64,000 nt of DNA from Kangiellaceae bacterium (GTDB taxonomy: Bacteria; Pseudomonadota; Gammaproteobacteria; Enterobacterales; Kangiellaceae). Location of the stretch: contig JAHRVB010000142.1 of NCBI GenBank assembly GCA_019090895.1, forward strand, positions 1-64,000, written 5' to 3'. A program made the translations under genes and the position numbers. How positions within the stretch are numbered: the stretch's first letter is position 1; each line of letters opens with the position of its first letter. Below, piece after piece: positions 4,027 through 9,993 of the stretch. A model generated the notes under the pieces. The model was not told the origin of the DNA. It made no database searches and worked only from the letters and a program-made list of their open reading frames with translations.

Positions 4027-4365
4027 ATGGATAAGTTATTTTTGGGTATTAGTAGTCACGTTGTATGTTTAAGTAAAGAAACCGGAGAGCAAATCTGGAA
4101 AACCAAGCTTAAGAGCTCAAGCATCACTAATGTCTATTTTGAGGAAGATAATGTTTATGCCTATTCTGGAGGCCATTTATTCTGCTTAAGAGCTGATAAC
4201 GGAGCCATAATATGGAAAAACACACTTAAGGGATTTGGCTATGGTGCTTGTATCATCGCCAGTGAAACTCAAAATGCATCGGTTATATCCAGTCAAATAT
4301 CCGCCCAACAAGCGGTTGCCGCATCAACAATTGCAGCAACAACTGCAACACAATCGGGTAGTTAA
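4027..4365 (+). CDS. Small cytoplasmic PQQ-type repeat protein
   Basis: 112 residues with a good AATAGGAG ribosome-binding site. It contains two blade-like repeats: VVCLSKETGEQIWKTKL and LFCLRADNGAIIWKNTL. These match the PQQ/quinoprotein propeller signature (L-x-x-x-x-G-x-x-x-W). Two blades cannot close a propeller alone, so the protein may oligomerise or be a truncated remnant. The C-terminal 30 residues are a low-complexity Ala/Thr/Gln/Ser tail. No signal peptide is visible. Function unknown. Confidence 0.6.
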   Translation: MDKLFLGISSHVVCLSKETGEQIWKTKLKSSSITNVYFEEDNVYAYSGGHLFCLRADNGAIIWKNTLKGFGYGACIIASETQNASVISSQISAQQAVAASTIAATTATQSGS

Positions 4366-4448
4366 AGAACTTGTGACTTAGTTATATTGCTGTTCGAGTA
4401 CCCACGTGGTAAGTTTTCACATTCCGCAATTAAATATGAAAATTGTAA

Positions 4449-5042
4449 ATGAGAAAACTAAACCACACCTTGCTACTTTTAACTATATTTGCTGCAAGCC
4501 TCCTTACGTCATCAGCCAATGCGAAAGGCCCCGCTGGAACGGTATTATACTTTCAGCAGGGCGAACAAGTATTTCTGCTACTAGCCGATCACTCTAGCAA
4601 TTCCCGAGGTTGGGGATCTTTTGGAGGCGGAGAAAATAAAGGTGAAACTTCAATAGAGACGGCTGCACGAGAAACCGAAGAAGAAACCCGTGGATATTTT
4701 CCACGAGAACTAATCGAACAAAAAATAGCAGGACAAAAACCAGTTGTATCTAAAGGATTCTCTCTTTATTTTGTAGAAATCCCTTTTGTACCCGCACAAC
4801 GGATCAGAAATAATCCTAGCGATAAATCCGACAAGAGCACCTTTGAACGCGATCACTATGCTTGGATACCCTTTTCAGAAGTTAAGAAGGCAATCAATAA
4901 AAGGAACCCATCTATTCACGATTTAAAAATCAACTCCCTTTATCTTTCTCGCGGAACAAAAACTAACTTTTTCTGGGATGTTTGGATACAGAATATGCGA
5001 CACGCTGCCGAACAGGGTGTGGTACCTTGGGAAGTTCAATAA
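4449..5042 (+). CDS. Exported Nudix-domain protein
   Basis: 197 residues. A clear signal peptide (HTLLLLTIFAASLLTSSANA) is followed by a Nudix box, GGGENKGETSIETAARETEEE, which fits G-x5-E-x7-RE-x2-EE apart from Arg in place of the last Gly. Nudix enzymes hydrolyse nucleoside-diphosphate-linked substrates and normally act in the cytoplasm, so export is unusual. No strong Shine-Dalgarno is visible. The stop overlaps the 3' end of the convergent HNH gene by 7 bases. Confidence 0.7.
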   Translation: MRKLNHTLLLLTIFAASLLTSSANAKGPAGTVLYFQQGEQVFLLLADHSSNSRGWGSFGGGENKGETSIETAARETEEETRGYFPRELIEQKIAGQKPVVSKGFSLYFVEIPFVPAQRIRNNPSDKSDKSTFERDHYAWIPFSEVKKAINKRNPSIHDLKINSLYLSRGTKTNFFWDVWIQNMRHAAEQGVVPWEVQ

Positions 5043-5590
5043 CGCATATTATTGGAAAATTCTTTGGTTAAGAAATCCATTTGATCGGCAAAAATATTTC
5101 TATTACAAAAAGCTAAGTACTCTGCTTTGTTCGGCTTATAAGGGACGGCCAGCAAAGGCATATTCGCTTCTTCTGGCGTTCGGCATCCCTTACGATTATT
5201 ACAAGGCTTACAAGCTGTTGCAAAGTTAACCCAAGAATTTTTTCCGCCTCGCGCGCGAGGTTGGATATGGTCACAAGTTAGGGTAGAACGGCTGAATACA
5301 ACACCGCAGTACAAACACATATCGCGGTCACGTTTAAACAAAGATGCGTTACACAATCTTGGCGTACGAAGGTCGCTCTCACGAACTCGAGAGTTGGTTG
5401 CGATCACCGGCGCCATGTCTAGAATAGTTTGATTCCCCGTCATTCGAGAATGACCACCATGCAGCCGAACCGATTCGTCACCATAAGTCCATAGCACTTT
5501 ACCTTTCGCGTAAAGACACGCAGCAGTGCCCATTCCAATCCATTCCATCGCCTGCCCCGCTTTATTAAGCCGCAGGATTTTAGTTTGCAT
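5036..5590 (-). CDS. HNH endonuclease at the 3' end of the tRNA array
   Basis: 184 residues from the ATG at 5590, chosen because GAGGAG lies seven bases upstream; an earlier in-frame start adds ten residues. The C-terminal half is an HNH domain: CLYCG, then CDHIQPRARGG, then NFATACKPCNNRKG, giving two zinc-binding Cys pairs and the DH catalytic pair. The N-terminal 90 residues are uncharacterised. It lies 57 bases downstream of tRNA-Arg(TCT) on the same strand and is probably the last gene of the array transcript. HNH proteins of this size can be homing or restriction-like nucleases; the target is unknown. Confidence 0.85.
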   Translation of the reverse strand: MQTKILRLNKAGQAMEWIGMGTAACLYAKGKVLWTYGDESVRLHGGHSRMTGNQTILDMAPVIATNSRVRESDLRTPRLCNASLFKRDRDMCLYCGVVFSRSTLTCDHIQPRARGGKNSWVNFATACKPCNNRKGCRTPEEANMPLLAVPYKPNKAEYLAFCNRNIFADQMDFLTKEFSNNMRY

Positions 5591-5646
5591 TTTCTTTCTC
5601 CTCTTTTTTATTGTCAGCAATCAATTAATTAGTTTTCGCATAAAGT

Positions 5647-5721
5647 TGGCACGCATCACAGGATTCGAACCTGTTACCGTCGGCTTAGAAGGCAGAAGCT
5701 CTATCCGAATGCGCTAGTGCC
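5647..5721 (-). tRNA. tRNA-Arg(TCT), degenerate 5' half
   Basis: The anticodon loop CTTCTAA, the T-arm ACAGG-TTCGAAT-CCTGT and an encoded CCA are clear. The 5' strand does not pair well with the 3' acceptor strand when a normal D-arm is drawn. A start at 5714 would give a paired 7-bp acceptor but removes most of the D-arm. It may be D-arm-truncated or a pseudogene. Confidence 0.6.
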
Positions 5722-5728
5722 TATCAAT

Positions 5729-5803
5729 TGGAGCGACATGCCGGATTTGAACCGACGAAATTTGGGTTTGCAATCCAATACATTTCCACTCTGTCAATGT
5801 CGC
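5729..5803 (-). tRNA. tRNA-Cys(GCA)
   Basis: Perfect 7-bp acceptor GCGACAT/ATGTCGC, T73 and encoded CCA. Loop TTGCAAA gives anticodon GCA. One mismatch closes the anticodon stem (A31-C39). Confidence 0.85.
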
Positions 5804-5831
5804 AAAAATTTTTGTAAAAATGTGACCGCTA

Positions 5832-6134
5832 TTAGCGGCCACGAAACCGATACAATCGGTTAATTGATTTAATTCCTTGTTCCATTCGCTGACGCGCTGA
5901 AACATTGGCGGAATGTACCTTAATGTTCGGCGGGATCACACCATAGTCAACCACTGCTTTTTCAAGCCAAGTAATGACATCGTAACCGGTGCCGCGTTTA
6001 TCATTTCCTAAGTCATGATCTAAACTTATATCGCTTACTGCACCTGTCATTAAAAGACTAATCGCCTCTTGTGGCCAACGAACAACTTTCCAACCAGGCG
6101 GCGCCTGACGGATATCATCTAAAAAAACTTTCAT
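5832..6134 (-). CDS. Cyclic-phosphate-processing receiver-domain protein (cREC)
   Basis: 100 residues behind an excellent AGGAGG site. The whole protein is one receiver-like domain: MKVFLDDIR (acidic pair), ISLDHDLGND (phospho-acceptor-position Asp plus a histidine) and IKVHSAN. This matches the cREC family proposed, from genome-context work, to act on 2',3'-cyclic phosphates in RNA repair; that role is family knowledge by prediction, not proof. It sits inside the tRNA operon between tRNA-Thr and tRNA-Cys with no promoter of its own visible. It should therefore be co-expressed with the tRNAs, which suggests processing of damaged tRNA ends. Confidence 0.8.
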   Translation of the reverse strand: MKVFLDDIRQAPPGWKVVRWPQEAISLLMTGAVSDISLDHDLGNDKRGTGYDVITWLEKAVVDYGVIPPNIKVHSANVSARQRMEQGIKSINRLYRFRGR

Positions 6135-6154
6135 ACTATCCTCCTGGGTAAATT

Positions 6155-6229
6155 TGGAGCCGGTTATTGGATTCGAACCAATGTCGACTGCTTACAAGGC
6201 AGTTACTAAACCATCTCAGCTAAACCGGC
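6155..6229 (-). tRNA. tRNA-Thr(TGT)
   Basis: Perfect acceptor GCCGGTT/AACCGGC and encoded CCA. Loop CTTGTAA gives anticodon TGT. Canonical T-loop TTCGAAT. Confidence 0.93.
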
Positions 6230-6235
6230 ATAAAT

Positions 6236-6310
6236 TGGAAGCCCCGACTGGGTTCGAACCAGCGATACGAGAGTCAAAGTCTCGTGTGTTGCCAACTACA
6301 CTACAGGGCT
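6236..6310 (-). tRNA. tRNA-Gln(TTG)
   Basis: Acceptor AGCCCTG/CGGGGCT with one G-U pair and encoded CCA. Anticodon stem CGAGA/TCTCG closes loop CTTTGAC, anticodon TTG. Confidence 0.92.
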
Positions 6311-6317
6311 AAAAAAT

Positions 6318-6393
6318 TGGCACCCTTGGCAAGACTCGAACTTTCGCATCTTGGTTTCGTAGACCAAAGCTCTTCCAACTGAGCTACAAGGGT
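6318..6393 (-). tRNA. tRNA-Arg(ACG)
   Basis: Perfect acceptor ACCCTTG/CAAGGGT and encoded CCA. Stem TTGGT/ACCAA closes loop CTACGAA, anticodon ACG, which needs A34-to-inosine editing to read all CGN codons except CGG. The T-stem has one mismatch. Confidence 0.9.
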
Positions 6394-6398
6394 ATATT

Positions 6399-6473
6399 TG
6401 GTGTCTCCAATTGGATTCGAACCAATGTCTCGAGAATTTCAACCTCGCGCTAATCCAACTCAGCTATGAAAAC
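6399..6473 (-). tRNA. tRNA-Phe(GAA)
   Basis: Acceptor GTTTTCA pairs with TGGAGAC using two G-U pairs; CCA is encoded. Loop TTGAAAT gives anticodon GAA. Confidence 0.88.
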
Positions 6474-6480
6474 AATTATT

Positions 6481-6562
6481 TGGAACACGAGACGGGATTC
6501 GAACCTGCGAATGAATGACCAGATTGAAAGTCTGGTCACTTTGACCGCTCGTATACTCGTGT
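6481..6562 (-). tRNA. tRNA with anticodon TTC (Glu) on a Tyr/Ser-like body
   Basis: Perfect acceptor ACACGAG/CTCGTGT, T73 and CCA. A 7-bp stem GACCAGA/TCTGGTC closes loop CTTTCAA, anticodon TTC. The D-region (ACGAGCGGTCAAAG) looks like a class II tRNA such as tRNA-Tyr, yet the variable segment is only about 9 bases. Its charging identity is therefore uncertain. A conventional tRNA-Glu(TTC) lies next to it. Confidence 0.7.
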
Positions 6563-6568
6563 ATAAAC

Positions 6569-6644
6569 TGGTGTTCCTATGGGGATTCGAACCCCAGTAA
6601 CTTGGTAGAAAGCCAAGTGTCCTTAGCCACTAGACTATAGGAAC
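6569..6644 (-). tRNA. tRNA-Glu(TTC)
   Basis: Perfect acceptor GTTCCTA/TAGGAAC and CCA. Stem CTTGG/CCAAG closes loop CTTTCTA, anticodon TTC. The GTCTAGTGGC D-region is typical of tRNA-Glu. Confidence 0.93.
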
Positions 6645-6649
6645 ATGTT

Positions 6650-6726
6650 TGGTAGGCCGCCCGAGATTCGAACTCGGAACCTTCCGGTTAAAAGCCGGAT
6701 GCTGCTTCCAATTGAGCTAGCGACCT
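6650..6726 (-). tRNA. tRNA-Lys(TTT)
   Basis: Acceptor AGGTCGC/GCGGCCT with one G-U pair and encoded CCA. Stem TCCGG/CCGGA closes loop CTTTTAA, anticodon TTT. Confidence 0.93.
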
Positions 6727-6732
6727 AAAAAA

Positions 6733-6831
6733 TGGTAGTACTGGATTGAATCGAACAATCGACCTCCTGTGTGTAAGACAGGCGCTCTCCCAATCGTCTC
6801 ATTACGCCTACTTTTGGTGAGCTAAAGTGCT
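6733..6831 (-). tRNA. tRNA-Val(TAC) with a D-loop insertion
   Basis: Stem CCTGT/ACAGG closes loop CTTACAC, anticodon TAC; T-arm GATTG-TTCGATT-CAATC and CCA are present. The standard TAGCTCA and TGGGAGAGC halves of the D-arm are separated by about 21-23 extra bases. Taking the distal 5' end, acceptor AGCACTT pairs at 5 of 7 positions with CAGTACT. Taking the nearer 5' end gives a much poorer acceptor. The insert is nearly identical to that in tRNA-Ala (7069-7186). Confidence 0.7.
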
Positions 6832-6837
6832 AAAAAT

Positions 6838-6913
6838 TGGTCCCCAGAGCTGGTCATGATCCAGCCACCTCACGCTTATCAGGCGTGTGCTCTACCAGAT
6901 GAGCTATCTGGGG
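6838..6913 (-). tRNA. tRNA-Ile(GAT) with atypical T-loop
   Basis: Perfect acceptor CCCCAGA/TCTGGGG and CCA. Stem CACGC/GCGTG closes loop CTGATAA, anticodon GAT. The T-loop is ATCATGA rather than TTCRANN, which replaces the usual T54-A58 pair by A54/T58. Confidence 0.88.
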
Positions 6914-6988
6914 AAAACGGTCGAGTCGGACTTTCACCGTGACGGGTCTGTAGGGTGAAGCCTCGACCGACTTCACCATCGTTTTTCC
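6914..6988 (-). other. Structured spacer, possible tRNA-Asp remnant
   Basis: This 75-base gap between tRNA genes is longer than the others and folds strongly. GGTCGAG pairs with CTCGACC, and alternatively GGTGAAG pairs with CTTCACC. A CCGTCACGG stretch resembles the tRNA-Asp(GTC) anticodon region, but no normal T-arm can be drawn. No other Asp tRNA is found in the array. Confidence 0.3.
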
Positions 6989-7062
6989 TGGCGGATGTAC
7001 AAAGAATCGAACTTTGATCAAACGGTTAACAGCCGTTCGCTCTACCATTGAGCTACACATCC
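6989..7062 (-). tRNA. tRNA-Asn(GTT)
   Basis: Acceptor GGATGTG/TACATCC (one G-U) and encoded CCA. Stem AACGG/CCGTT closes loop CTGTTAA, anticodon GTT. Confidence 0.93.
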
Positions 7063-7068
7063 TAAAGT

Positions 7069-7186
7069 TGGTGGAGATGATGAGATTCGAACTCTTTCCT
7101 CTCGTAGCAATTCGAACTCTACAACTTGCAAAGCTTTTGCTCTCCCAATCGTCTAATAACGCCTACACTTGTTGAGCTACACCCCC
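7069..7186 (-). tRNA. tRNA-Ala(TGC) with D-loop insertion and duplicated T-arm-like element
   Basis: 118 bases. The outer ends pair fully: GGGGGTG with CATCTCC (G-U allowed), then A73 and CCA. Loop TTTGCAA gives anticodon TGC. The D-arm halves are separated by about 21 extra bases that match the insert in tRNA-Val at 26 of 28 aligned positions. After the anticodon arm there is an extra hairpin GTAG/CTAC containing AGTTCGAAT, a second T-loop-like sequence, before the true T-arm. Confidence 0.65.
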
Positions 7187-7206
7187 ATTCCAAACATTTT
7201 AATAAC

Positions 7207-7275
7207 TGGCATAGAGCGAGGGAATCGAACCCGTTTCTTAAGGCTTACAACCGTGTATAATCGCCGACATACTAT
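7207..7275 (-). tRNA. Degenerate tRNA-like gene, anticodon GTA or TGT
   Basis: Encoded CCA, T-loop TTCGATT and a GG-TTGTAAG-CC anticodon arm are visible. Only four outer acceptor pairs (ATAG/CTAT) plus one wobble form. A 7-base loop gives GTA (Tyr), while a shifted reading gives TGT (Thr). Short length and weak stems suggest a decaying copy. Confidence 0.45.
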
Positions 7276-7287
7276 GGCATCGTAAAT

Positions 7288-7363
7288 TGGTCGGAGGTAC
7301 AGGATTTGAACCTGTGATATACACTCCCAAAGCGTAGGTGTTACCAGACTACACTAACCTCCG
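7288..7363 (-). tRNA. tRNA-Pro(TGG)
   Basis: Perfect acceptor CGGAGGT/ACCTCCG and CCA. Stem TACGC/GTGTA closes loop TTTGGGA, anticodon TGG. Confidence 0.92.
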
Positions 7364-7373
7364 TTAATCAATT

Positions 7374-7449
7374 TGGTAGCAATGACAGGACTTGAACCTG
7401 TGCAAATTTTCGTATGAAGAAAACACTCTACCAACTGAGCTACATTGCT
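7374..7449 (-). tRNA. tRNA-Met(CAT), elongator type
   Basis: Perfect acceptor AGCAATG/CATTGCT and CCA. Stem TTTTC/GAAAA closes loop TTCATAC, anticodon CAT. The paired 1-72 position argues against an initiator. Confidence 0.88.
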
Positions 7450-7455
7450 AAAATT

Positions 7456-7530
7456 TGGTTGCGGATGACTGAATCGAACGGCCGACCAAAGGGACATGAA
7501 CCTTATATGCTTCCACAGCACTAACCCGCT
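7456..7530 (-). tRNA. CAT-anticodon tRNA, possibly initiator-like
   Basis: Loop TTCATGT gives anticodon CAT. The acceptor AGCGGGT/ATCCGCA pairs at six positions but has A1 opposite A72; bacterial initiator tRNA also has an unpaired 1-72. The 3' end CCGCAACCA matches the E. coli tRNA-fMet tail. The anticodon stem has only GG/CC next to the loop rather than three G-C pairs, so the identity is tentative. Confidence 0.7.
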
Positions 7531-7536
7531 TTAATT

Positions 7537-7611
7537 TGGAGCAAACACTGAGACTCGAACTCAGCCTTTAAGATTGGAAATCTTTCGTGCTACCGCTAAC
7601 ACTATGCTTGC
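7537..7611 (-). tRNA. tRNA-Gly(TCC)
   Basis: Acceptor GCAAGCA/TGTTTGC (one G-U), T73 and CCA. Stem AAGA/TCTT closes loop TTTCCAA, anticodon TCC. Confidence 0.9.
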
Positions 7612-7612
7612 T

Positions 7613-7696
7613 TGGTGGACAGCCCGGGTTTCGAACCCGGCACGCTATTAAGCATCGGATTTACAGTCCGAATGAGATCCAAATCTCCCGCTACCC
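7613..7696 (-). tRNA. tRNA-Tyr(GTA)
   Basis: First tRNA of the long distal block. Acceptor GGGTAGC/GCTGTCC (two G-U) and CCA; stem TCGGA/TCCGA closes loop CTGTAAA, anticodon GTA. It has a class II variable arm of about 14 bases and a short D-loop inside GAGA/TCTC. Confidence 0.9.
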
Positions 7697-7740: not shown

Positions 7741-7807
7741 CTAATTATTAAAGAACGTTGCCCACAATTGAGGCAGTGTCACTACACCTTTCTGGCATTT
7801 GTGTGAC
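7741..7807 (-). promoter_or_regulatory. boxB/boxA-like antitermination leader for the long tRNA block
   Basis: On the minus strand GTTCTTTAATAATTAG (7741-7756) closely resembles the rrn boxA TGCTCTTTAACAATTTA. It is preceded by a bulged hairpin (7778-7807, GTCAC/GTGAC core) in the boxB position. In rRNA operons boxA recruits NusB-NusE for antitermination. Here it lies just after attenuator 3 and before 19 tRNAs, cREC and HNH. Confidence 0.6.
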
Positions 7808-7828: not shown

Positions 7829-7860
7829 AAAAAAACCCGAGGCTTTGAACTCTCGGGTTT
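7829..7860 (-). terminator. Terminator of attenuator 3
   Basis: On the minus strand ACCCGAGAG-loop-CCTCGGGT is followed by seven T residues: a strong intrinsic terminator. Its 5' arm can instead pair with upstream CTCTCGAGTTT (7868-7878). Confidence 0.9.
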
Positions 7861-7917: not shown

Positions 7918-8046
7918 TTACGTTGGCGCACCTCTAGCACCAAAATAAATCTTGCTATTCATTTGCCCATGTTCGGGCCGTACAATCTCACACCAATGAT
8001 TTATCGGCTGTGTTAACTGCATCTGCTTTTGGCTATTTATTTTCAT
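7918..8046 (-). CDS. Leader peptide 3 of the tRNA array
   Basis: A 42-residue ORF starting MKINSQKQMQL, with GGAA four to five bases before the ATG and ending GARGAPT. It uses 19 of the 20 amino acids (only Asp absent). It lies between tRNA-Ile2 and terminator 3, and its stop codon abuts the first attenuator segment. No promoter fits in the 26 bases upstream, so it is probably transcribed by readthrough of attenuator 2. The position and broad composition fit a codon-sampling attenuation peptide rather than a stable protein. It precedes the block with Tyr, Gly, Met, Pro, Ala, Asn, Ile, Val, Lys, Glu, Phe, Arg, Gln, Thr and Cys tRNAs. Confidence 0.7.
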   Translation of the reverse strand: MKINSQKQMQLTQPINHWCEIVRPEHGQMNSKIYFGARGAPT

Positions 8047-8072: not shown

Positions 8073-8149
8073 TGGTGGGCCTGCTCAGATTCGAACTGAG
8101 ACTCTACCGATTATGAGTCGGTTGCATTAACCAATTATGCTACAGGTCC
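8073..8149 (-). tRNA. tRNA-Ile2 (CAT, probable lysidine type)
   Basis: Acceptor GGACCTG/CAGGCCC with one A-C mismatch, A73 and CCA. Stem ACCGA/TCGGT closes loop CTCATAA, anticodon CAT. C4-G69 and C5-G68, and the CGACTCATAATCG anticodon arm shared with E. coli tRNA-Ile2, fit known TilS recognition. It would then read ATA. It stands alone between attenuators 2 and 3. Confidence 0.8.
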
Positions 8150-8165
8150 AACTTATATTTTTGGC

Positions 8166-8204
8166 AAAAAAAAGCCCTGTGAAGAATATCTCAACCGGGC
8201 TTTA
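8166..8204 (-). terminator. Terminator of attenuator 2
   Basis: Minus-strand AAAGCCC-19-base loop-GGGCTTT followed by a T-run. It sits 17 bases upstream of tRNA-Ile2, so it can only serve that tRNA as an attenuator or end an upstream transcript. Confidence 0.85.
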
Positions 8205-8253: not shown

Positions 8254-8361
8254 CTACATCTTTCTATTTTCATATTGCCCAATAAATGGCATGCAACAAT
8301 ATTCAGCCGGCCAATAATTGGCCCGTTGTTTTATTTGTATTGTCGCTATTATCTGATTCAT
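8254..8361 (-). CDS. Leader peptide 2 of the tRNA array
   Basis: A 35-residue ORF beginning MNQIIATIQIKQRANYW. Four of its first ten codons are ATA, and the next tRNA downstream is the CAT tRNA predicted to read ATA. The peptide uses M, N, Q, I, A, T, K, R, Y, W, P, E, C, F and G. It has no Leu, Ser or His, which are exactly the residues served by the tRNA block upstream; it also lacks Val and Asp. The ribosome-binding site is weak (an A-rich tract). It is preceded by a consensus promoter at 8450-8478. It is read as a regulatory leader, with no stable product expected. Confidence 0.7.
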   Translation of the reverse strand: MNQIIATIQIKQRANYWPAEYCCMPFIGQYENRKM

Positions 8362-8449: not shown

Positions 8450-8478
8450 ATTAAACCATTACAGAACTTCACTGTCAA
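8450..8478 (-). promoter_or_regulatory. Sigma-70 promoter P2
   Basis: Minus-strand TTGACA, 17-base spacer, TTTAAT. It drives leader 2, tRNA-Ile2 and, by readthrough, leader 3 and the long block. The rest of 8362-8663 is AT-rich and shows no gene. Confidence 0.8.
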
Positions 8479-8663: not shown

Positions 8664-8740
8664 TGGTACGCCGCGAGGGACTCGAACCCTCAAAACCGGA
8701 GGCTTAAACCCCGTATGTATGCCAATTCCATCACCGACGC
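8664..8740 (-). tRNA. tRNA-Leu(TAA) with collapsed variable arm
   Basis: Acceptor GCGTCGG/GCGGCGT pairs at six positions with wobbles; CCA is encoded. Stem CGGGG/CTCCG closes loop TTTAAGC, anticodon TAA. The GATGGAATTGGCA D-region is Leu-like, yet the variable segment is only five bases instead of a class II arm. Confidence 0.8.
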
Positions 8741-8747
8741 ATTAAAC

Positions 8748-8836
8748 TGGAGGAGAGAAAGAGAATCGAACTCTAAAGGCTTTCGCCTTCCCTTTGCTTA
8801 GCAAGCAACGCCGATCACCATCACGGATTACTCTCC
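8748..8836 (-). tRNA. tRNA-Ser(GCT)
   Basis: Acceptor GGAGAGT/TCTCTCC pairs at six positions and CCA is encoded. Stem GTTGC/GCAAA (outermost pair mismatched) closes loop TTGCTAA, anticodon GCT. A class II variable arm AAGGC-GAAA-GCCTT is present. Confidence 0.88.
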
Positions 8837-8845
8837 AAAATAATT

Positions 8846-8938
8846 TGGCGGAAGCCGGAGGGCTCGAACCCCAAATCCTATTCAGGTACCACTGGTTTTC
8901 AAGACCAGGGCTTTGACCAACTCAAAGTTTCAACTTCC
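8846..8938 (-). tRNA. tRNA-Ser(TGA)
   Basis: Acceptor GGAAGTT/GGCTTCC (G-U allowed), G73 and CCA. Stem CTGGT/ACCAG closes loop CTTGAAA, anticodon TGA. The D-stem is extended (CTTTG/CAAAG) and a long variable arm is present. Confidence 0.88.
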
Positions 8939-8944
8939 TATATT

Positions 8945-9115
8945 TGGTACCCAGAGAGACTACTCAGACCATCCTTGGTCTTCATACATTCGTGCCATCG
9001 TCATTCTTCCGATGTTCGGCAATGCTCCTTCATTGCTCGTCGAACTCTTAATGAACGGATTCTAAATCCGCCGTGTATGCCGGACTATTTATAGCCAGCC
9101 TGGCACCACCTGGGC
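8945..9115 (-). tRNA. tRNA-Leu(TAG) with about 85 extra bases
   Basis: 171 bases. Outer ends pair fully, GCCCAGG with TCTGGGT (G-U allowed), then A73 and CCA. Stem GCGGA/TCCGT closes loop TTTAGAA, anticodon TAG. The D-loop is enlarged. The T-loop TTCGACG is followed by an insertion with three perfect hairpins (9019-9036, 8996-9014, 8966-8981) before the 3' T-stem. A functional tRNA would need removal or tolerance of this insert. Confidence 0.65.
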
Positions 9116-9141
9116 TTCATCTGTTTTTTACAAATCATCAT

Positions 9142-9218
9142 TGGGGTAACCAATCGGGTTTGAACCGATATCATCCGGACTCACAATCCGGAGCTCGACC
9201 AATTGAGCTATGGCTACC
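9142..9218 (-). tRNA. tRNA-His(GTG)
   Basis: Acceptor GTAGCCA/TGGTTAC, C73 and CCA, with an encoded G at -1, the His identity element. Stem CCGGA/TCCGG closes loop TTGTGAG, anticodon GTG. First tRNA after attenuator 1. Confidence 0.93.
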
Positions 9219-9254
9219 CCAATAATGACTAACAAATTTACGGAATTTCAGGCA

Positions 9255-9286
9255 TAAAAAAACCGCAAGTTTTTGGCTTGCGGTTT
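9255..9286 (-). terminator. Terminator of attenuator 1
   Basis: Minus-strand AAACCGCAAG-7-base loop-CTTGCGGTTT followed by T residues. It lies 37 bases upstream of tRNA-His. Confidence 0.9.
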
Positions 9287-9351
9287 AAAGAATCAGGTTT
9301 AATTTAAATTCTTCTTATCCGGAAGCCTGCGCTCCCAAATAAGGAAGCGAG
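9275..9351 (-). promoter_or_regulatory. Attenuator 1 competing-hairpin region
   Basis: Segments in transcript order: 1 at 9351-9343 directly after the leader stop, 2 at 9336-9330, 3 at 9327-9319, 4 at 9283-9275 (terminator 5' arm). CGCTTCC/GGGAGCG pairs 1:2, GGGAGC/GCTTCC pairs 2:3, and GGCTTCCGG/CCGCAAGCC pairs 3:4 at eight of nine positions. A ribosome at the stop would mask segment 1, leaving 2:3 and the terminator. Stalling earlier would give 1:2 and antiterminator 3:4. Confidence 0.78.
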
Positions 9352-9483
9352 CTAGATCAACAACGAATGCTCTTTACGTGTTATTGATCCACTAAATGAA
9401 TAACCCCATAAACTGAGCACAGCAGGGCTGGAGATCCGATGATCTCTTTGCACTGTATTCAGTTGATTTAGGAATGTGTTCAT
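9352..9483 (-). CDS. Leader peptide 1 of the tRNA array
   Basis: A 43-residue ORF starting MNTFLNQLNTVQRDHR, with AAAGG about 12 bases before the ATG and ending RKEHSLLI. It uses 19 different amino acids (Cys absent). Leu (6), Ser (7) and His (2) make up 15 of 43 codons. They include CTA, CTG, CTC, TTA and TTG for Leu, and TCC, TCA, TCG, AGC and AGT for Ser. The block it precedes encodes tRNA-His, Leu(TAG), Ser(TGA), Ser(GCT) and Leu(TAA), which read these codon families. A consensus promoter lies 77 bases upstream. It is interpreted as a codon-sampling attenuation leader. Confidence 0.75.
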   Translation of the reverse strand: MNTFLNQLNTVQRDHRISSPAVLSLWGYSFSGSITRKEHSLLI

Positions 9484-9559
9484 TTGCAAATTTACCTTTC
9501 AAATATAATTTCAGGCTTAGGTTTTAGTTGCTCTAAAGCCTGTCCATTCAGTTAACGAG

Positions 9560-9588
9560 AATATACCGACTTAGAATTCAACCGTCAA
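9560..9588 (-). promoter_or_regulatory. Sigma-70 promoter P1
   Basis: Minus-strand TTGACG, 17-base spacer, TATATT. It drives leader 1 and the His-Leu-Ser-Ser-Leu tRNA block. Confidence 0.85.
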
Positions 9589-9764: not shown

Positions 9765-9800
9765 AAAAAAACGCCGGTTGCTTAGTAGCTTCCGGCGTTC
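9765..9800 (-). terminator. Terminator of attenuator 4
   Basis: Minus-strand AACGCCGG-14-base loop-CCGGCGT followed by T residues. The following 176 bases down to promoter P1 hold no tRNA or convincing gene. Confidence 0.88.
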
Positions 9801-9866
9801 TTATAAAATTAAAACTTTATTTAAACTTTGGAAGCTATTCACTTCCAAATTAAGGTTGGAAGTGAA
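9786..9866 (-). promoter_or_regulatory. Attenuator 4 competing-hairpin region
   Basis: Segments in transcript order: 1 at 9866-9858 right after the leader stop, 2 at 9846-9838, 3 at 9837-9830, 4 at 9793-9786 touching the terminator 5' arm. TTCACTTCC/GGAAGTGAA pairs 1:2 (9 bp perfect), GGAAG/CTTCC pairs 2:3, and TAGCTTCC/GGAAGCTA pairs 3:4 (8 bp perfect). The order and logic match attenuators 1-3, although the antiterminator overlaps the terminator stem by only two bases. Confidence 0.7.
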
Positions 9867-9867
9867 A

Positions 9868-9993
9868 TTATCGAGGGTGCTCCCCCAATAACGATATCAT
9901 CTTATCTGCTAGACAACTGAGCACACGTGTCCAGGCAGAGATATCCCCCGCTTGAAAATAATTGCACTGTTGAATAACCGTTAAGTGAAACAA
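9868..9993 (-). CDS. Leader peptide 4 of the tRNA array
   Basis: A 41-residue reading from a TTG at 9993, beginning MFHLTVIQQCNYFQAGDI and ending GEHPR. All 20 amino acids occur. TTG was chosen because AAAGGAAGAG lies just upstream and a promoter (TTGTAT-18-TAGAAT) just before that. The frame itself is open to a GTG at 10089, giving 73 residues. No tRNA follows its terminator before the next promoter, so it is an orphan module, or the outermost gate acting by readthrough into module 1. Confidence 0.55.
   Translation of the reverse strand: MFHLTVIQQCNYFQAGDISAWTRVLSCLADKMISLLGEHPR

Follow-up and report, generated by a model that had tools for sequence, protein, structure and literature searches.

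Putative ribosome-mediated attenuators with codon-matched leaders precede tRNA blocks in tRNA arrays of Kangiellaceae

Phages, plasmids and bacterial chromosomes carry arrays of tRNA genes for which a role against tRNA-cleaving immunity is suspected (PMC5966550, PMC12803027), and the locus described here raises the question of how such an array might be switched on. The window, i.e. the whole stretch of 64,000 nucleotides that was analysed, comes from a draft gammaproteobacterial genome (4.96 Mb, 269 contigs) and carries a tRNA array on its minus strand (9217-5647), the strand on which all the window features given below are located. ARAGORN called 20 tRNAs within 3.6 kb of this array, which thus meets the definition of a tRNA array unit (≥20 tRNAs, ≥2 per kb; PMC5966550). 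Four short ORFs, here termed leaders 0 to 3, each lie directly 5′ of a hairpin region and an intrinsic terminator. Our reading, which we consider likely (probability roughly 0.7) in the absence of expression data, is that the array is a reserve tRNA operon made up of blocks, every one of which is controlled by its own ribosome-mediated transcription attenuator.

The array also includes a gene for a protein with a cREC (cyclic-phosphate processing Receiver) domain (5832..6134; PF20274, E 1.9e-28), tRNA-Cys and tRNA-Arg(TCT) genes (5647..5803; ARAGORN) and, at its end, an HNH endonuclease gene (5036..5590; PF14279/PF01844) with homologues in other arrays. cREC is predicted to process the 2′,3′-cyclic phosphate ends left by RNA cleavage (PMC7824862), and its presence in the operon would fit an RNA-repair neighbourhood, the activity being inferred here from a domain match only. 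At five homologous loci (L002, L003, L004, L007 and L008) a cREC gene likewise adjoins the array, and the named homologues of the window gene include proteins of Kangiellaceae (uncultured Kangiellaceae and Pleionea), a little-studied family of marine bacteria. Outside this family, the loci of cREC relatives that were examined held no tRNA array, one lone tRNA-Asn aside, whilst a search of phages and plasmids for homologous arrays returned just short, tRNA-sized matches. Many array tRNAs are interrupted or degenerate, and parts of the arrays may for this reason be decaying.

Leader 1 (9352..9483; ATG at 9483, TAG at 9352) encodes 43 amino acids, MNTFLNQLNTVQRDHRISSPAVLSLWGYSFSGSITRKEHSLLI, ending in EHSLLI; two codons further upstream lies an alternative TTG start, at a more favourable distance from an AAGG motif. 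A consensus scan, the only evidence for it, places a promoter-like TTGACG-17-TATATT at 9560..9588. The original prediction was that the codons of this leader match the tRNAs of the block that it precedes, and the observations on which it rested all held: 15 of the 43 codons specify Leu (six: CTA, CTG, CTC, TTA, TTG, TTG), Ser (seven: TCC, TCA, TCA, TCG, AGC, AGT, AGT) or His (two), both Leu and both Ser codon families are used, and block 1 consists of tRNA-His(GTG) (9142..9217; ARAGORN, Rfam), tRNA-Leu(TAG) (8945..9115; homology and insert alignment), tRNA-Ser(TGA) (8846..8938; read from the sequence, with a tRNA-Sec-like Rfam match), tRNA-Ser(GCT) (8751..8837; tRNA-Sec-like match and homology) and tRNA-Leu(TAA) (8664..8740; ARAGORN, Rfam), with no further His, Leu or Ser tRNAs found in the window array. 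Taken alone, the enrichment is marginal and constitutes weak evidence: 15 of 42 codons compares with an expected fraction of 0.24 from pooled leaders (p = 0.05) or 0.21 from random codons (p = 0.02), and the leader holds 19 of the 20 amino acids.

ARAGORN missed tRNA-Leu(TAG) because a structured T-loop insert of ~80 nt splits the gene. A conserved structured RNA of this size occupies the same T-loop position in several array tRNAs (window 9045-8959; L010, L073 and L077), with the sequence GTTCGA^CGAGC..GGAACGCTGCCGAACATCGG..GATGGC..GAAGACCAAGG..GGTCTGAGTA and stems that appear to covary; it had no Rfam match in the window or L010, and it may be a tRNA intron or a selfish RNA. Other elements recur within the arrays, namely inserts in the D-loop (AGTAGGCGTWATKAGACGA) and anticodon arm (GCAGATTTTTGCTCCTGCAAAATCTGC) (window 6830-6733 and 7190-7068; L010, L012, L073 and L077), and a non-tRNA RNA of ~70 nt between tRNAs (window 6985-6915), with the motif ACGGTGAAAGTCCG-ACTCG and two flanking stems, which is found again in L010, L011, L071, L073, L074, L077 and L083. 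At L010 7120-7400 (array orientation) a tRNA-Gln is broken by a MITE-like insert of ~270 nt with perfect 25-nt inverted ends.

Leader 2 (8254..8361; 35 amino acids, MNQIIATIQIKQRANYWPAEYCCMPFIGQYENRKM) is preceded by a promoter-like TTGACA-17-TTTAAT (8450..8478; read from the sequence), homologues having a similar TTGAC box at this position, and followed by a terminator predicted by folding (8172..8202). None of its 34 codons specifies Leu, Ser or His, an absence with a chance of about 1.4e-4 given uniform codons or about 3e-4 at a frequency of 0.21, and four of them are ATA. Block 2 is a single tRNA(CAT) (8073..8149; ARAGORN) with an anticodon arm, CCGACTCATAATCGG, identical to that of its best host match; this match is a tRNA that we read, by inference from sequence alone, as Ile2, which would decode ATA. 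In L012 and L015 the block 2 slot seems to be occupied by an interrupted tRNA whose anticodon, TAT, likewise reads ATA; it was identified by eye, ARAGORN having made no call there. A conserved element, TTTGAAATTGAATGGGTCTGTTTCAAA, lies ~100-150 nt upstream of the promoter-like sequence (window 8602-8575) and upstream of leader 1 or leader 2 promoters in L010, L011, L071, L073 and L077; it is possibly an operator or a small RNA.

Leader 3 (7918..8046; 42 amino acids, MKINSQKQMQLTQPINHWCEIVRPEHGQMNSKIYFGARGAPT), with a terminator predicted by folding at 7833..7860, includes all 14 of the amino acids served by block 3. This block (6155..7696; ARAGORN and homology) comprises Tyr, Gly, Met, Met, Pro, a degenerate Asp-like gene, an interrupted Ala-like gene, Asn, Ile, Val, Lys, Glu, Glu, Phe, Arg, Gln and Thr, and is preceded by a boxA-like sequence, GTTCTTTAATA (7746..7756). 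Sequence matches to boxA, the sole evidence for this element, were found in six further loci, making seven in total and including a perfect GCTCTTTAACA. Leader 0 (9868..9993; 41 amino acids, MFHLTVIQQCNYFQAGDISAWTRVLSCLADKMISLLGEHPR) has a TTG start with AAGGA 9 nt upstream, carries all 20 amino acids and ends with a stop that abuts helix 1 of a full switch (9771..9870), with helix 1:2, an antiterminator (TAGCTTCC/GGAAGCTA) and a terminator (9798-9771), all supported by folding and a covariance model match, yet no tRNA block follows before the next promoter.

Homologues were sought with the cREC and HNH genes beside the array, with the DNA of the leaders and with a covariance model. This yielded 27 units, window included, in 14 loci (12-13 arrays) of 12 Kangiellaceae genomes, each unit with a short leader ORF, its translation inferred, upstream of an intrinsic terminator. 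The loci are the window locus (W), L010, L011, L012, L085 and L105 (these three in one genome), L015, L016 and L106 (one locus split over two contigs), L071, L073, L074, L077 and L083; the homologues are thus few, related and from a single family. Leader ORFs were chosen by stop position and open frame, and in many leaders of types 2 and 3 the Shine-Dalgarno sequence is weak or absent. L085, counted among the 14 loci, precedes no tRNAs: there (4293-7100, reverse strand) two attenuators of the same type and a boxA stand before a tandem repeat and a gene for an EF-Tu-like protein, which scored 546.8 bits, the EF-Tu cut-off being 522.4. The covariance model, built from 13 units, found nothing new in 369 genomes of the class except a match in G763, which we rejected as an array attenuator as it sits before a gene read as leuA and is probably a convergent leu attenuator.

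Behind the leader stops five RNA segments are conserved, the stop falling, in hand-read folds, between the inside of helix 1 and ~8 nt before it. Segments 1, 2 and 3 of window leader 1 (9319..9349) can form helix 1:2 (CGCTTCC/GGGAGCG) or helix 2:3 (TATTTGGGAGC/GCTTCCGGATA), whilst segment 4 (..CCGCAAGCC) pairs either with segment 5 as the terminator (9261..9285) or with segment 3 as the antiterminator (CGG..GGCTT with CCG..AAGCC). With no ribosome on the stop the predicted fold is 1:2 plus 3:4; when a ribosome on the stop was modelled by masking 13 nt from the stop, 2:3 formed and segment 4 was freed. The probability of finding the terminator arm in the antiterminator thereby fell from 0.68 to 0.03 for window leader 1 and from 0.74 to 0.10 for window leader 3. 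Two orthologues showed drops from 0.66 to 0.03 and from 0.66 to 0.14; the change was smaller in the other units. Summed over the 27 units, antiterminator pairs numbered 267 against 200 (maximum 247) in 100 dinucleotide-shuffled sets, and the switching gain on masking was 0.153 against -0.078 (maximum 0.030), the real values exceeding every shuffled set. About a third of the units individually showed little or no gain, and the equilibrium folding model disregards kinetics.

Covariation was assessed in an alignment of 13 units. For the ON helix set 91.8% of cells were paired, six of 15 pairs were changed on both sides and the covariation score was 0.229 against 0.135 in shuffled alignments (0/500); for the OFF set the values were 89.9%, eight of 22 pairs, and 0.381 against 0.189 (0/500). 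Covariation and the comparison with shuffles therefore both indicate that a terminator and a mutually exclusive antiterminator are conserved. We rejected a T-box or other known riboswitch as the identity of this structure, since neither a T-box, a specifier loop nor any other known riboswitch was matched in Rfam at gathering thresholds or at E ≤ 1.

These data bear on the explanation that the leaders are chance ORFs and the hairpins ordinary terminators between the tRNA units of a decaying mobile array. The many interrupted tRNAs, the leader peptides, which are barely conserved apart from certain ends, and the weak ribosome sites of many leaders speak for it. Against it, the helices that precede the terminator (1:2, 2:3 and 3:4) show conservation with covariation and exceed shuffles, the ORF stop abuts helix 1, and codon content follows the block, as set out below; we consider this explanation very unlikely.

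Whole-leader Leu, Ser and His content discriminates only weakly between leader types (0.27 vs 0.20-0.24) and was rejected for this purpose, and pairing tests were therefore used. A block was taken to comprise all tRNAs lying between two successive leaders, with tRNAs inventoried from ARAGORN calls and BLAST matches of called tRNAs covering the anticodon, giving 16 leader-block pairs. The whole-leader match to the downstream block reached a sum z of 17.85, compared with 1.04 ± 4.0 for permuted pairings (0/20,000; p < 5e-5), and that of the last 22 codons 26.44, compared with 2.67 ± 5.1 (0/20,000; p < 5e-5). When leaders were swapped only within arrays, the true pairing ranked second (whole leader) and first (last 22 codons) of 48. 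The signal survived the omission of any one of the six arrays tried (p ≤ 2.5e-4). Of the 113 amino acids with a tRNA in the leader's own block, leaders held 111 (random-ORF mean 96.2 ± 3.2), compared with 178 of the 207 remaining ones; the permutation p was 0.004, and this inclusion was significant solely in the leader frame. The match of the other five frames was weaker or absent, the next best giving a sum z of 10.9 (p = 0.006). That a wrong frame attains this value suggests that relatedness inflates the test somewhat and, given that the permutation ignores phylogeny, our p-values are optimistic.

The match is a bias and not a rule, nor is it exclusive, because the leaders hold nearly all amino acids (18.1 of 20 on average, the corresponding figures for random ORFs and real proteins being 17.1 and 16.6). 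At the level of codon boxes, 45 codons matched and 27 fell in the other box, with about 40 matches expected from pooled box usage, and isoacceptor-level matching across leaders was not significant. A lack of correlation between leader codons and downstream tRNAs across homologues would have refuted the original prediction; in the homologous arrays the correlation is present, mostly in the leader frame. The proposed match is thus supported as an enrichment with near-complete inclusion, whilst exclusivity failed and specificity for isoacceptors was not shown.

Could the match merely reflect common descent within a few leader types, ends rich in His, Leu and Ser having been inherited beside their block without any functional link? 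The type 1 leaders of W, L071, L073, L077 and L010 do share an H/S/L-rich C-terminus (EHSLLI, GEHHLLLI, GRHQSLLV, GRHQSLLI and GEHHLTIS amongst the leader 1 orthologues), and all but that of L010 share a GTGCTCAGT stretch. Against this, the signal remains when only one of the four leaders of His/Ser(/Leu) blocks is kept (p ≤ 3e-4), the Leu and Ser codons of the shared end vary synonymously (CTA TTA, TTG TTG, CTG TTA), and unrelated leaders contribute, namely the third leaders of L012 and L015 and the leader of L105. We regard ancestry alone as unlikely to account for the match.

Individual leaders illustrate the relationship. In L077, 14 of the last 22 leader codons specify Leu, Ser or His ahead of a block of His, Leu, Ser and Ser tRNAs. 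Leader 3 of L012 has 40 of its 46 codons within the 14 amino acids of its block and lacks His and Tyr, tRNAs for which were not found in the L012 array. The L105 array (Tyr, Asn, Glu, His, Ser, Lys, Leu, Asn, Lys) follows a leader ending in QKHSNAKKEYSLLN, in which 12 of the last 15 codons are in-block and the Ser and Leu codons are only TCN and CTN, which fits its Ser(TGA) and Leu(TAG) tRNAs. L010 has no block 2 leader; its leader 1, which contains all 20 amino acids, stands ahead of the entire array.

It is possible, though we consider it rather unlikely, that the leaders sense slow translation in general, caused by starvation or a ribosome-targeting drug as for whiB7, and that the match is a by-product of broad coverage. 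The breadth of the leaders relative to random ORFs and real proteins favours such a sensor, as do leaders of the leader 0 type, which cover 18-20 amino acids without a tRNA block, the default-ON logic described below, by which nearly any stall would be effective, and the attenuator pair with boxA in L085, an arrangement that fits a broader role in sensing failing elongation. Against it stand the true leader-block pairings, which beat permuted ones in the leader frame, the lack of any Leu, Ser or His codon in window leader 2, and leader 3 of L012, nearly free of codons for tRNAs missing from its block.

Returning to block-specific attenuation as the preferred reading, the data show a conserved architecture of ORF plus switch, covariation and a codon-block match; the direction of switching, the inducing signal, the functionality of the tRNAs and a role in replacing tRNAs cleaved or depleted in conflict are all inferred. 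In the proposed mechanism RNA polymerase would transcribe the short leader ORF and then the five RNA segments. If the whole leader is translated, the ribosome on the stop would cover segment 1, so that 2:3 and 4:5 form and transcription terminates before the tRNAs; if the ribosome stalls within the leader, or is absent, 1:2 and the 3:4 antiterminator would form and the tRNA block would be transcribed, making the switch default-ON. Because a stall anywhere except at the last codons leaves segment 1 free, the leader would work as a checklist, enriched in the codons of its own block's tRNAs (His, Leu and Ser for block 1), such that a shortage of those charged tRNAs would turn the block on and restored supply turn it off. 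Past the attenuator, the boxA before the long block would probably recruit rrn-type antitermination, the recruitment of NusB/S10 being inferred from the sequence match. The array tRNAs appear divergent: those compared, which did not include the last ones, share 57-75% identity with the host tRNA that has the same anticodon; together with the cREC gene, this makes a response to tRNA cleavage the most likely purpose, again by inference.

The logic has precedents. In amino-acid operon attenuation (trp, his, leu, ilv) a short leader ORF likewise carries codons for the sensed amino acids, and ribosome position selects terminator or antiterminator. The Kangiellaceae leaders differ in that they would control tRNA genes and each lists many amino acids, and the switch in consisting of five segments, the first of which follows the stop, and in a predicted ON state without translation; in the trp attenuator, absence of translation means OFF. 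Closer in logic is the whiB7/wblC uORF of actinomycetes, in which full translation leads to the terminator and disrupted translation to the antiterminator, with induction by drugs and amino-acid starvation (PMC11550727, PMC12121999); however, it controls a single resistance regulator, without a codon-to-product match, and in other taxa. T-box riboswitches also sense tRNA charging through transcription attenuation; they have no leader ORF and bind uncharged tRNA themselves. The tRNA array units of mycobacteria, phages and plasmids resemble the Kangiellaceae arrays in their density (≥20 tRNAs), a nearby HNH endonuclease, divergent or variant tRNAs and a suspected anti-defence role (PMC5966550, PMC12803027), whereas blocks with attenuators, boxA and cREC set the latter apart; the words 'leader' and 'promoter' are absent from the main text of both papers. 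We found no description of leader-peptide attenuation of tRNA operons in the open-access full texts searched, and the novelty would lie in applying ribosome-mediated attenuation to tRNA operons.

A bolder version, for and against which we find little to choose, is that the blocks are self-auditing, each leader being finishable only by the tRNAs of its own block or their host equivalents. Were this so, lost tRNAs would switch on just the blocks that replace them, in a modular response to tRNA damage that includes a gene for processing cyclic phosphates. The five-segment switch, with its diversifying leaders, may also be a natural template for multi-tRNA sensors. If our main reading is correct, attenuation would govern the tRNA pool as well as amino-acid synthesis, and the Kangiellaceae arrays offer a testable answer to how such arrays are switched on, namely by codon-matched attenuators that would sense the loss of the very tRNAs encoded downstream.
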